A DNA stretch of 42,405 bases, from assembly GCA_012517255.1 (NCBI GenBank), contig JAAYVH010000167.1, positions 1 to 42,405 on the forward strand, written 5' to 3'. The DNA is from Chthonomonadales bacterium (GTDB lineage: Bacteria; Armatimonadota; Chthonomonadetes; Chthonomonadales; CAJBBX01). Below the pieces are notes generated by a model. That model ran no database searches, was not told where the DNA came from, and saw only the letters and a program-made list of their open reading frames with translations. The position numbers were made by a program, and so were the translations under genes. Below, one piece after another: positions 17,784-23,121 of the stretch (positions are counted from its first letter, which is position 1; every line of letters starts with the position of its first letter).

Positions 17784-18560
17784 TCAACGCATGGTCATGG
17801 CACGGGCGATCAGGACCGATGCGGCGGTCAGGGCTGCGGTCTCGGTCCTGAGCACGTAGGGAGACGCGGACACGGCCCTGGCTCCTGCCGCCAGCGCCAT
17901 GTGCTTTTCGTCGTCTGAGAAGCCCCCCTCCGGTCCAACGAACAGCGCATAGGATCTGCGACCGGTCGCCGGTCCGGCCGGCGCCTCGTCGGCAGAGACG
18001 ACGCACAGGATGGGCGGACCGTCGGCATCCAGCAAGAGAACGTCGCCGGCGCCGCCGACGACCGAGAGCGCCTCGGGAAGGCTCGATGGCTCCATGAGTT
18101 CCGGCACGTTGTCCCGTTTGGACTGCTCGGCGGCGGAGCGCACTACCGCCTGCCATCGCTGCATCTTGTGTGCCATGCCAGCAGACCCTCGGGCTACGGA
18201 CGGGACCGTGCGTTGGGTCACCAGCGGGATGAACCGCGCGACCCCGATCTCAGTGCCGTGCTGCAGCACCTGCTCGAAACGCTCGCCCTTTCCCAGAGCC
18301 TGCACGACGGTAATGTGGCAGGGGGGAGCCGGAGGAGGATCAGCCTTGCCCGAGATCGTGAAGGTGATCGCTTGACGTTCGATGCTTTGGGCCGTGGCTA
18401 TGAAGCAGGCGCCCTCGACATCCCGCAGCGCGATGCGCTCGCCGACGCGCAGTCTCAGCACGTTGGTGAGATGGTGCCGCGTCTGGCCCGTCACGATCAC
18501 TGGCGCCGAGCCCGAGATCGTCGTCTCGAGGAAGACATGCCGCAGGTGCCTGGGATCCAT
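17784..18560 (-). CDS. rsmE: 16S rRNA m3U1498 methyltransferase RsmE
   Basis: A 258-residue SPOUT-class methyltransferase that modifies U1498 of 16S rRNA using S-adenosylmethionine. The N-terminal PUA-like domain (RHVFLETT, then [13 protein letters not shown]) is followed by the knot region with [30 protein letters not shown] and [10 protein letters not shown]. The ATG at 18560 fits the family start ([10 protein letters not shown]). A longer in-frame start at 18623 would extend into prmA without similarity. No clear ribosome binding site is seen. The prmA-rsmE order is common in dnaK-dnaJ clusters of Gram-positive bacteria. Confidence 0.93.
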
Positions 18561-18583
18561 CGCTGCCCGGGGCGTGCCTTGGC

Positions 18584-19462
18584 TTAGCGGACGGGCGATC
18601 TGCGCGCGATGATGGCACGCCACACGTCGTCGGCGCGAACCTCGGCGATCTCGAAACCGTTCTGAATGAGCGCTTGTTCGACGAGACCGTAGCGCTCCTC
18701 GACGATGCCGGAGGCGATCAGGGCCCCGTTGTCAGGAGCGACAAGCGCCGACAGAAGCGGCGCAAGCTCGACGATGGTCTCTGCGATGATGTTGCAGACG
18801 ACTAGATCGCATGTAGGCCGCAGGGCGTCGAGCTCGTCCGGGGTCAGAATGGTGACCCGATCGGCGACCCCGTTGCGCTGGGCATTCTCGGCAGCAATGC
18901 GCCGCGGAAGCGCATCAATCTCCGAAGCGTAGACATGAGCGGCCCCCAGCTTGACGGCGGCTATGGCCAGGATCCCGGAGCCGGTGCCGACATCCGCCAC
19001 GAGCATGCCCGGGCGGACAAGCTCGTCCAGAGCCTCCAGACACAGGATCGTCTTGGGGTGGCCTCCTGTGCCGAACGCCATGCCCGGGTCAAGCAGAACC
19101 ACGGCTCGATCGGTGCCAGAGGCCGACTCCTCCCATGACGGACAGACGAGCAGTCGGCGACCGAACGAACGAGCCTTGTGGTGCTTGCGCCACTCGCTCA
19201 GCCAATCGGGGTCCGCAATGCGACGCACGGTCATATCAAACGGCGCCGAGAGGCCAAACTCGCCGAACCGGTCGAACCGCTCGCGTATGCGGGTCAGGCG
19301 GGTCTCAAGCAAGTCGTCAACGGGTAGCCACCCGCTCGTCACGGTGGCGTTGGACCCCGATGCAGTCTCGGCCACTCCGGTACAGCCGTTGTCCATCAGC
19401 GCCTGCGCCACGGCCTCTGATGCATCTGGCGGGACTCGAACGGTGATCTCAGCCCATCGCAT
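18584..19462 (-). CDS. prmA: Ribosomal protein L11 methyltransferase PrmA
   Basis: A 292-residue class I methyltransferase that trimethylates ribosomal protein L11. Recognisable parts are the N-terminal substrate domain (MRWAEITVRVPP), the DPGMAFGTGGHPKT loop, the SAM motif VADVGTGSGILAI and the VVCNIIAETI motif. The start at 19462 is chosen by similarity; a longer form from 19543 overlaps dnaJ and looks non-homologous. GAGGAG is present but about 17 bases upstream, so translation may be coupled to dnaJ, whose stop lies only 10 bases before this ATG. Confidence 0.93.
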   Translation of the reverse strand: MRWAEITVRVPPDASEAVAQALMDNGCTGVAETASGSNATVTSGWLPVDDLLETRLTRIRERFDRFGEFGLSAPFDMTVRRIADPDWLSEWRKHHKARSFGRRLLVCPSWEESASGTDRAVVLLDPGMAFGTGGHPKTILCLEALDELVRPGMLVADVGTGSGILAIAAVKLGAAHVYASEIDALPRRIAAENAQRNGVADRVTILTPDELDALRPTCDLVVCNIIAETIVELAPLLSALVAPDNGALIASGIVEERYGLVEQALIQNGFEIAEVRADDVWRAIIARRSPVR

Positions 19463-19472
19463 GGGGCGCCGC

Positions 19473-20588
19473 TTATCGGTCTCCTCGGAAGAGCCTGCCA
19501 AAGAGCCCTTTCTCGTCGCCGTTGGTCTCTTCGCCCATGGCAAGGGCGTACTGCCGCAGCGCCTGTCGCTGCTCGTGGTTGAGCTTGCGCGGGACCTCTA
19601 CGCGTACGATAACGTACTGGTTGCCGCGTCCGTAGCCGTTAAGCTCCGGCATCCCTTTGCCCTTGAGCACGAACGATGCCCCGGTCTGGGTGCCTTCGGG
19701 TATGGTCAGCTTCTCGACGCCGCCGATCACGGGCACCTCGATCTGGCCCCCCAGCGCCGCCAGCGGAAACGAGATGGGCACCTCGCAGTAGAGGTCGCGG
19801 TCTCGGCGTTCGAAGATATCGTGCGGCTGCACATGAAGCACGATGTAGAGGTCACCGGGCGGTCATCCGCGCAATCCAGCGTCACCTTCGCCGCTGAGGC
19901 GTATGCGCGATCCTGTGTCAACGCCCGCCGGTATCTTGAGGTTCCGTTCGCGCGTCCTTCGCAGGCGTCCTGCTCCGGCGCACTGCGAACACGGAGCGGT
20001 GACAATGCGCCCTTCGCCCCGGCACCGCCCGCACGGAGCTGTCGTCTGGAACGTGCCGAGGAGGGTGTTCTGGGTGTGCCGCACATAACCCGTGCCTCGG
20101 CACGTGGAGCAGACTTCGGACTGCGTGCCCGGCTGAGCACCGCTGCCCTCGCAGAGATCGCATGTCTCGAGATGCGTGTAGCGAAGTCCCTTGGTGACTC
20201 CCTGCGCTGCTTCCTCGAGCGTTATTTCAACATCCTGCCGCAGGTCGTCACCGCGCACGGCGCTGGTATAGGCCGCTTGCTGGCGCTGCGATGTGCCGAA
20301 GAATGCATCGAAGATGTCCCCGAAGCCCGTGAAGCCGAAGCCCGCGTCTCCCATGCCGCCGCCATTGAGCCCGTCATGACCGAACCTGTCGTACGTCTGC
20401 CGTTTCTGGTCGTCGCTCAGGACGTCATAGGCCTCGTTGATCTCTTTGAACCGCGCCTCGGCGTCCGGGTCTTTGTTAACATCGGGGTGGTAGCGACGGG
20501 CCAGGGTTCGAAAGGCGCGCTTGATCTCGTCTGCCGTCGCGTTGCGCGACAGCCCCAGCACTTCGTAGTAATCGCGCTTTTCAGTCAT
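19473..20588 (-). pseudogene. dnaJ: Chaperone DnaJ, interrupted by an in-frame TGA
   Basis: The Hsp40 co-chaperone of DnaK. The J domain (1-70) has HPD at 34-36. A Gly/Phe-rich segment follows, then four complete zinc motifs: CDLCEGSG (143), CSTCRGTG (160), CGRCRGEG (186) and CSQCAGAG (200). After LSGEGDAGLRG (codon 241) codon 242 is TGA, at 19863-19865. The frame then continues without shift as PPGDLYIVLHVQPHD to a normal C-terminal domain and a stop at 19473. In other DnaJ proteins this position is glycine (GGPPGDLY), so one base change (GGA to TGA) explains it. Neighbours such as holB, plsY and dnaK end in TGA, so the code is standard. It could be a sequencing or assembly error, a strain-level nonsense mutation, or readthrough (the context TGAC is a weak stop in E. 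coli). The ATG overlaps dnaK by 8 bases. Confidence 0.85.
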
Positions 20589-22401
20589 TCTCATCGCTGG
20601 CAGTATCCGACCAGTCGGGCGTCTCGGGCGCCTCCGCGGCGGCGTCGGCTTCAGTGGATTGCGCGGGTTGTTCGTCGGGCCGGCTTAGCGCCGTCTCGAG
20701 CTGATACGCGGCCGATGCAAGGGCATCGGTTTTTTGCCGCATGGCCTCGACGTCCTCGCCTGCCAATGCTGCCCGCAGGTCCTGCAGAGCGTCGAGCACG
20801 CCGGTGCGTTCCAACGGAGCCCGCTCGCCAGCCTCGCGCAGCAGCCGCTGGGCGCGCTCTGCCGCGGAGTCGCCCTTGTTTCTCATCTCGAGGATGTTCC
20901 TGCGGCGTTCGTCTTCTGCGCGGTTGGCCTCGGCATCCGCCACCATGCGCGCGATGTCATCCTTGGGCAGGGCGCCCGCGCCGGTTATGGTGATGCTCTG
21001 GGCCTGTCCCGTGGCGCGGTCCTTGGCCGACACCTGGACGATTCCGTTGACATCAATGTCGAACGTCACGTCGATCTTCGGACCACCCCGTGGGCCCGGC
21101 TGAATGCCTGTCAGTTGGAAGTTGCCGAGGGGCTTGTTGTACTGGACCAGTTCCCGTTCGCCCTGAAAGACTTTGATCTCGACGGTCTTCTGATTGTCCG
21201 CGGCGGTGGTGAACGTCTCGGTCTTGCTCGTTGGGATGGTCGTGTTCCGCTCAATGAGCCTCGTCATGACCCCGCCGAGCGTCTCGATGCCGAGCGACAG
21301 GGGAGTGACGTCGAGCAGCACCACGTCCTTCACATCTCCGGAGAGCACGCCTGCCTGAATGGCCGCACCGATGGCGACGACTTCATCAGGATTAATGCCT
21401 TTGAACGGTTCCTGCCCGAACATGGTCTGTACCATCTGCTGAACCGCCGGCATCCTGGTCATGCCGCCGACGAGCAATACACGATCCACGGACGACGGCT
21501 CCAGCTTGGCGTCTTCTAGCGCCTGCTTGGTCGGTCCGACCATCCGATCCAGCAGATGCTGGGTCAGCGCCTCCATCTGGGCTCGCGTCAGGTTCAGGTC
21601 AAGGTGCAAGGGGCCGTCGGCGCCCGAGGACAGGAACGGGAGGTTGATGTTGCTGGTTACCACCGTCGAAAGCTCTATCTTCGCCTTCTCTGCGGCTTCG
21701 CGCAGGCGCTGCATCGCCACTCGATCCTTCCGCAGATCCACGCCGTGGTCACAGTAGAAGGCGTCGCACAGCCAGTCGGCGATCGCAGCGTCCCAGTCAT
21801 CCCCGCCCAACGCCGTATCGCCGTTGGTCGCCTTCACTTCATAGACCCCATTGTCGAGCTCGAGGATGGACACGTCGAACGTGCCGCCTCCCAGATCCCA
21901 TACGAGCACGGTCTGAACATCATCGCGGGTCAGGCCGTAGGCGAGAGCGGCCGCCGTCGGCTCATTGATGATCCTCAGTACCTCGAGGCCGGCGATAGTT
22001 CCCGCATCCTTGGTAGCCTGGCGCTGATGGTCCGTGAAGTAGGCAGGAACCGTGATGACGGCTTGGGTGACCTTGGCTCCGAGATAGGCCTCCGCGTCAT
22101 CTCGGAGCTTCTGCAGGATCATTGCCGAGATCTCCTGCGGAGTGTACGCGCGATCGCCGAGGACGGCCTTGTAGTCCTTGCCCATCTGGCGCTTGATGCT
22201 CGCGATGGTTCGCTCCGGACTGGACACCATCTGCCGCTTGGCCAACGTGCCGACCAGCCGTTCACCTGTCTTGCTGAATCCGACTACGGACGGAAGCAGC
22301 CGGCTGCCATCCGACAACGGAATGACGGTCGCTTCGCCGCCCTCCATGACGGCGACGACCGAGTTGGTGGTCCCGAGGTCTATGCCGACAACCCTGCTCA
22401 T
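20581..22401 (-). CDS. dnaK: Molecular chaperone DnaK (Hsp70)
   Basis: A 606-residue ATP-dependent Hsp70 chaperone. The ATPase domain begins [13 protein letters not shown] and includes the phosphate-2 loop [12 protein letters not shown] and the adenosine motif [14 protein letters not shown]. The substrate domain carries [15 protein letters not shown], and the C-terminal lid ends in an acidic tail. Length is normal. It is the first gene of a dnaK-dnaJ-prmA-rsmE block. The usual partners hrcA and grpE are not next to it, and I see no CIRCE element (TTAGCACTC-N9-GAGTGCTAA) in the 138 bases upstream. Heat-shock control must work another way or is not visible. No clear ribosome binding site is seen. 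Confidence 0.97.
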
Positions 22402-22539
22402 GGCCGGACTAATCGGCTGGAGGCCGGCAAGCGAACGGGCGACAGACGCCTCTGGATGGCGCTGCTGAGTTCGTGGCTGCTGCTATCCCACGCAGAGCAC
22501 ATAAGCGCGGCGGCTGGTCGAGATCTCCGTCCGCGAGGT

Positions 22540-23121
22540 TCACTCCTCAGTCTCTTCATCGACGCCAGCCTCTTCAGCCTCTGCGACCTCTGCAAGGGAC
22601 ACCTCTGTGTCATCGGCAGCCGCGGCGTCCTCGTCATCGTCGGCCACGATGTCCTCGACGTCCTCGGCGATTTCGTCGTCAAGCTGGGGCAAGCTGTCAT
22701 GGTCGGCTAGAGCGACGTCCCCATCGGCCTCCTCGCCGAGAGGCACGATCTCGTCCTCCTCGTCGTCTAGCTCCACGTATTCGATGTCTTCTGCGGAATA
22801 CACCGCCTCATCGTCACCGGTCGCTAAGGCGCGCAGCGCTGCGGGATCGTCCAGCGCGTCCGATCGAAGGCTGGCGAGAAGCCCCTGCAGCACCGGGCCC
22901 TTCGAAGTGGCATCCGGCAGCTTTTCGGGGCCGCCGACCTGCAGCGGCACGATCGCGCCTTCAGCGAGCTCCTCCAGCGCTACAGTCAGCGGGTTAGACG
23001 AGGCGCTGTTGACCAACTTACGCGCTCCGTCTTTGAGCTGGCGCGCACGCTTGGCCGCAACAATGACCAGCGCGTACTTGCTGCCGGCCTTATCGAGTCG
23101 GTCGGGCGACGGATATATCAT
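22540..23121 (-). CDS. rpoZ: RNA polymerase omega subunit with long acidic tail
   Basis: Residues 1-57 match the omega subunit: SKYALVIVAAKRARQL at 14-29 and NPLTVALEELAEGAI at 43-57. Omega binds the beta' subunit and helps RNA polymerase assemble. Typical omega proteins are about 70-110 residues, but this one is 193. After a 45-residue linker, residues 102-193 contain 43 Asp/Glu and no Lys or Arg. Such a tail recalls the delta subunit (RpoE) of Firmicutes, though there is no sequence relation I can see. GAGGAG lies about 10 bases before the ATG, and a good promoter lies at 23240-23268. It is upstream of dnaK, separated by 138 bases. Confidence 0.85.
   Translation of the reverse strand: MIYPSPDRLDKAGSKYALVIVAAKRARQLKDGARKLVNSASSNPLTVALEELAEGAIVPLQVGGPEKLPDATSKGPVLQGLLASLRSDALDDPAALRALATGDDEAVYSAEDIEYVELDDEEDEIVPLGEEADGDVALADHDSLPQLDDEIAEDVEDIVADDDEDAAAADDTEVSLAEVAEAEEAGVDEETEE

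Follow-up and report, generated by a model that had tools for sequence, protein, structure and literature searches.

The omega subunit of RNA polymerase encoded in the window, a 42,405-nucleotide stretch of DNA from a bacterium of the phylum Armatimonadota, ends in a polyanionic tail of 92 residues with a net charge of -43. The charge of this tail is held by selection, well beyond neutral expectation, while its sequence diverges fast, and a further acidic tail is found on the C-terminus of beta'. The prevailing view of omega is that of a small assembly factor that the cell can almost do without; in a phylum where it bears a polyanionic tail under selection, with a second one on beta', a regulatory role is likely.

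The omega subunit and its C-terminal tail

The rpoZ gene is located at positions 22540-23121 of the minus strand, with the ATG start at 23121-23119, the stop codon at 22542-22540, and an AGGAG 10 nt upstream of the ATG as likely ribosome-binding site. Its 193-residue product was matched by PF01192 over residues 8-57 (2.4e-17, 63.1 bits against a cut-off of 26; Pfam) and by TIGR00690 (rpoZ, 39.5 bits against a cut-off of 23.6; NCBIfam), and is the single omega copy found by profile match in the source genome, as one copy is the rule in nearly all relatives. PF01192 was the only domain matched; HARE-HTH was absent, so the protein is not a delta subunit, and no match to PF03979 (sigma region 1.1) was obtained. 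By every sequence criterion tested, the protein is an omega subunit (RpoZ/Rpb6 family), the core of which (residues 1-63, 22933-23121) presumably binds beta' as in other bacteria. The source genome belongs to the same order as Chthonomonas, and to a family other than that of Chthonomonas calidirosea; core identity is 0.65-0.81 to most members of the window's own family and 0.52 to G005.

The core is followed by a linker of 38 nearly uncharged residues (residues 64-101, 22819-22932; 5 Asp/Glu, 4 Lys/Arg) with the consensus 'pe.lP.s.p..PVL.GL' in family f1, including a family-conserved island LPxxxxxxPVLxGL at residues 68-81. The polyanionic tail proper comprises residues 102-193 (22543-22818), contains 43 Asp/Glu and no Lys or Arg, and is disordered according to charge/hydropathy prediction; an AlphaFold model of the single omega sequence, with a mean pLDDT of 43.6, was too poor to be informative. 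Close to its end, residues 175-180 (22582-22599) read SLAEVA, an instance of a motif of the type [ST]-hydrophobic-x-[DE]-hydrophobic-[hydrophobic/A] that recurs in these tails. As only seven residues precede the PF01192 match, the acidic tail is C-terminal, with no N-terminal tail as in RPB6. The gene coordinates and residue counts of an earlier note on this DNA were exact, and its statement that the tail more than doubles the usual length of omega is fair: E. coli RpoZ (91 residues) is homologous to the core over about 50 residues, and the solved bacterial omegas, at 59-119 residues, are too short for such a tail.

Conservation of the acidic tails and selection on the charge of the omega tail

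All 28 omegas extracted from the order carry the tail; the core is followed by 77-130 residues, and the net charge ranges from -22 to -44. Across Armatimonadota, a tail, defined by thresholds of our own choice as at least 30 residues with a net charge of -10 or lower, was found in 127 of 161 omegas (44 families), most of the genomes surveyed being fragmented assemblies; tail length among the tailed omegas was 41-203 residues. Families without an omega tail include f4, f10, f12, f16, f17, f21, f23, f26, f32-f35, f39 and f42. On an RpoB tree, the large clade of the window comprises 19 rows, 17 of them tailed, and over the whole tree the trait switches no fewer than nine times; this was a quick tree, with two badly extracted or fragmentary rows (G038, G046) misplaced. 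The outgroup consisted of the solved structures and a single omega sequence, L031 (labelled Actinomycetota), in which the core is followed by 11-23 residues, depending on where the boundary is set, with a net charge of -3 to -7, so that a restriction of the tail to Armatimonadota is not proven. According to the literature, most bacterial omegas lack an acidic tail of the RPB6 type (PMC8754651), and our literature search turned up no paper dealing with acidic tails of omega or with the rpoZ gene of Armatimonadota.

Several variants were encountered in this survey. In four loci of f19 and f31 (L085, L082, L007, L078), a lysine/arginine-rich cluster of the type PKRKRKSKAD interrupts or terminates the acidic stretch of omega. 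The tail of L041 (G009) ends in SRRGRMSS and that of the near-identical G007 in YHGDDE, which points to an apparent frameshift at the tail end. In three omegas of f16 (L049, L053, L212), the conserved core is interrupted by about 25 inserted residues, and the acidic tail is missing.

The earlier note had made conservation among close relatives the test of its proposal; all of these are tailed, with length and charge constrained and sequence not. In a same-genus relative, identity is 0.49 in the tail and 0.81 in the core, and within the window's family tail identity drops to 32-40%, the conserved part being mainly the linker island, not the acidic stretch. For the neutral expectation, the window's tail was mutated at random in 500 runs to an identity of either 50% or 35%. 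On average, these runs left the last 92 residues with a net charge of -20 and -12, respectively, with extremes of -32 and -24, compared to whole-tail net charges of -22 to -44 in the relatives. As the charge is kept by selection despite the drifting sequence, the tail probably does a job, and a composition that is kept while the sequence is not is the pattern predicted by bulk electrostatics. An acidic proteome as the cause of the tail was rejected: among about 645 genes sampled from the source genome, two family members and C. calidirosea, no comparable C-terminus was found, with a net charge of -16 for the next most acidic C-terminal 92 residues versus -43 for omega.

Beta' was examined because omega binds its C-terminus (PMC7700224). 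In the source genome, beta' ends in an acidic tail of 130 residues with a net charge of -37, which together with the omega tail amounts to -81. Of the 59 rpoC loci extracted (e.g. L270, 6085-10734), among them one truncated by the locus end, 48 encode a beta' tail with a net charge of -10 or lower. Among the 58 scorable polymerases, 34 have both tails, 52 have at least one, and six have neither, namely all four genomes scored in f12, f16 and f23, G169 of f29 and G186 of f33. The notion of an omega-only tail, as in the earlier note, was not borne out, since lineages without an omega tail mostly keep the one on beta' (14 of 20 genomes); with 52 of 58 polymerases tailed on omega, beta' or both, the charge appears to belong to the site and not to one subunit. 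The charges of the omega and beta' tails are uncorrelated (Spearman 0.17, p 0.2), which rules against simple compensation between the two. For E. coli beta', the tail after the same anchor has 45 residues and a net charge of only -3, yet it holds the sequence SLAELL.

Possible roles of the tails

Among elements of known function, the C-terminal region of the Firmicutes delta subunit (RpoE) is the closest parallel, a disordered polyanion of 83 residues with a net charge of -47 that is tethered to RNA polymerase (PMC7749165). The omega tail, with its 92 residues, net charge of -43 and predicted disorder, falls within the delta trait of a polyanionic disordered C-terminal region of 80-100 residues, so that the likeness drawn in the earlier note holds. 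Delta is anchored on the beta' shelf, and its binding repositions beta' elements into the site of omega (PMC7749165), which makes the anchors of delta and omega neighbours. The two differ in their setting: delta bears its tail on a protein of its own that includes a HARE-HTH domain, whereas here the tail resides on omega, with another on beta'. Of the earlier proposal that an acidic activity is fused to omega, the match in size and charge thus stands, and the confinement to omega does not, beta' being usually tailed too. A search for HARE-HTH, which covers the check for absence of delta suggested in the earlier note, detected no delta in the source genome: the sole HARE-HTH protein (L067, 1201-1770, C18) is a basic protein of 189 residues, encoded beside a ParB-like/methylase gene in what looks like a mobile element, and was rejected as a delta in disguise.

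Other acidic elements of known function are more remote. RPB6, the eukaryotic omega homologue, likewise has an acidic disordered tail (PMC8754651), but this is N-terminal, shorter, and docks onto TFIIH p62, which bacteria lack. Region 1.1 of sigma-70 is an acidic element that competes with DNA in the main channel (PMC7749165), but is a folded domain on sigma. A PF03979 match is present elsewhere in the source genome, in a frame of 402 residues; as region 1.1 and the omega tail occur in the same genomes, the tail is not supported as a stand-in for it. For Hfq, an acidic, disordered C-terminal tip is reported to mimic nucleic acid and to aid its release (PMC5606850); Hfq is an unrelated protein with a far shorter acidic tip.

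Our favoured reading, to which we assign a little less than an even chance, is that the tails form a polyanion tethered to the enzyme, which competes with nucleic acids and acts in release, in recycling or in suppressing non-specific binding. A disordered polyanion of about 92 residues, attached to omega via a short conserved linker, and a second one on the neighbouring beta' C-terminus would place some 80 net negative charges at the omega/beta' corner of the source genome's polymerase. As long and flexible nucleic-acid mimics, the tails could enter the channels for DNA and RNA and there compete, by virtue of their charge, with loosely bound nucleic acid, which may result in faster release after termination, in less non-specific DNA binding, or in a favoured exchange of sigma; what we infer here is that the tails are disordered, that they extend into the channels and that they act biochemically at all. 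The delta C-terminal region acts likewise from a neighbouring anchor point, and this precedent, the adjacency of the anchors and the lack of a detected delta in the genome are the grounds on which we favour the polyanion; an omega with such a tail may work like delta. It is possible, if somewhat doubtful, that Armatimonadota have an independent counterpart of delta in the form of a nucleic-acid-competing polyanionic module at the omega/beta' corner, interchangeable between two subunits and combined with a shared short docking motif. Several observations count against the polyanion. The polymerases devoid of an acidic tail on either subunit (f12, f16, f23, G169, G186) do without it, and a weak charge on one of the two subunits is not made up for by the other. 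Sigma region 1.1, which in other bacteria occupies the same channel, is present as well, so that the channel already has an acidic guest. The tails also contain non-random hydrophobic islands, which a pure polyanion would not need.

These islands are the basis of the main rival reading, in which the acidic tails of omega and beta' are a docking handle that offers short hydrophobic motifs to a partner protein, after the model of RPB6 and TFIIH p62 (PMC8754651); candidate partners would be the ribosome or a factor of transcription, repair or processing. The motif [ST][LIVM]x[DE][LIVM][LIVAM] occurs in 42 of 121 omega tails versus 5.5 in shuffles, and drops to the null level when reversed or permuted. 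Short conserved islands include the near-invariant EPSLEDIIGAGPV in f3, SL.DiaeqE in f14 and PVLxGL in f1; the motif [ST][LIVM]x[DE][LIVM][LIVAM] also ends the beta' tails of f14, f28 and f37, six genomes of these families have it in both subunits, and E. coli beta' also ends in ...SLAELLNAGLGGSDNE. However, the motif was chosen after looking at the tails, and its excess is marginal when f14 and f3 are left out (p 0.048); the beta' tails outside f14 have it no more often than expected by chance (p 0.25). The strict form is absent from most families, an unsupervised search returned non-random but mixed islands and not one universal tail motif, and the window's family conserves mainly the linker island and not the acidic part. 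We regard docking as rather unlikely to be what the tails are for.

Third comes an aid to assembly or solubility, by which the tail would keep nascent omega and beta' soluble and off nucleic acid, together with the DnaJ and DnaK encoded by the next genes. Such a role, which we deem improbable, would fit the part of omega in the folding of beta', for which GroEL covers in E. coli when omega is absent (PMC7700224), and the position of rpoZ directly before dnaJ/dnaK in most genomes. This linkage, detailed below, is equally present in tail-less families and may reflect no more than shared expression. That the tail has no specific role, being an acidic low-complexity C-terminus in free drift, is already disfavoured and appears very improbable: it would account for the loss or shortness of the tail in several lineages and for its wide range of lengths, but runs against the retention of charge beyond neutral expectation, the lack of any similar protein among the sampled genes, and the occurrence of the tail in most omegas over deep divergence. 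Armatimonadota offer an experiment of nature on whether a release of RNA polymerase driven by polyanions arose repeatedly in evolution; with C. calidirosea cultured and its genome complete, in vitro tests are within reach.

Gene neighbourhood of rpoZ

In the window, the gene order is rpoZ, dnaK, dnaJ, prmA, rsmE, all on the minus strand and likely forming an operon (17784-23121). The gene for DnaK (Hsp70; 20581-22401, PF00012 9e-232) is next downstream of rpoZ. It is followed by dnaJ (19473-20594), which is split into two frames, 20594-19863 with the J domain, the Zn domain and the start of DnaJ_C, and 19841-19473 with the rest of DnaJ_C; the split around 19841-19863 represents a frameshift or an assembly error. 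The likely operon is completed by prmA, for the ribosomal protein L11 methyltransferase (18584-19543, PF06325 2.9e-70), and an rsmE-type 16S rRNA methyltransferase gene (17784-18623, PF04452 1.8e-37).

The usual neighbours of dnaJ and dnaK are hrcA and grpE, the place of which is taken here by rpoZ. In 146 of 159 testable Armatimonadota omegas, rpoZ is located directly upstream of dnaJ or dnaK on the same strand, with a median gap of 28.5 nt, while in the one outgroup locus gmk is found upstream of rpoZ instead. This link is remarkable by itself as a feature of the phylum; no report of a conserved rpoZ-dnaJ/dnaK pair was found in the literature searched, and the pair gives a further, independent starting point for tests of polymerase assembly. 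The tail is not explained by it, as the link is also present in the tail-less families f4, f10, f21, f32-f35 and f42. A family-level association of tail and linkage (Fisher p 0.006) is uncorrected for relatedness, and on the RpoB tree, with the two misplaced rows, linkage changes only twice independently as against nine changes of the tail, so that a tie between the tail and the dnaK/dnaJ context by joint change is not shown.

Some deviating arrangements were noted. In the three f16 loci with the core insertion, rpoZ does not adjoin dnaJ/dnaK, and in two f7 genomes (G034:C20, G048:C2) the omega gene has as its divergently oriented neighbour a gene for a sigma factor that contains region 1.1. 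In 8 of 50 Armatimonadota genomes (G037:C50, G040:C180, G049:C1 (L269), G211:C51, G044:C40, G235:C184, G181:C122 and G074:C1), a second RpoB-like frame was observed, which is divergent in sequence, about 890-1120 residues long and matches PF00562 only in part.
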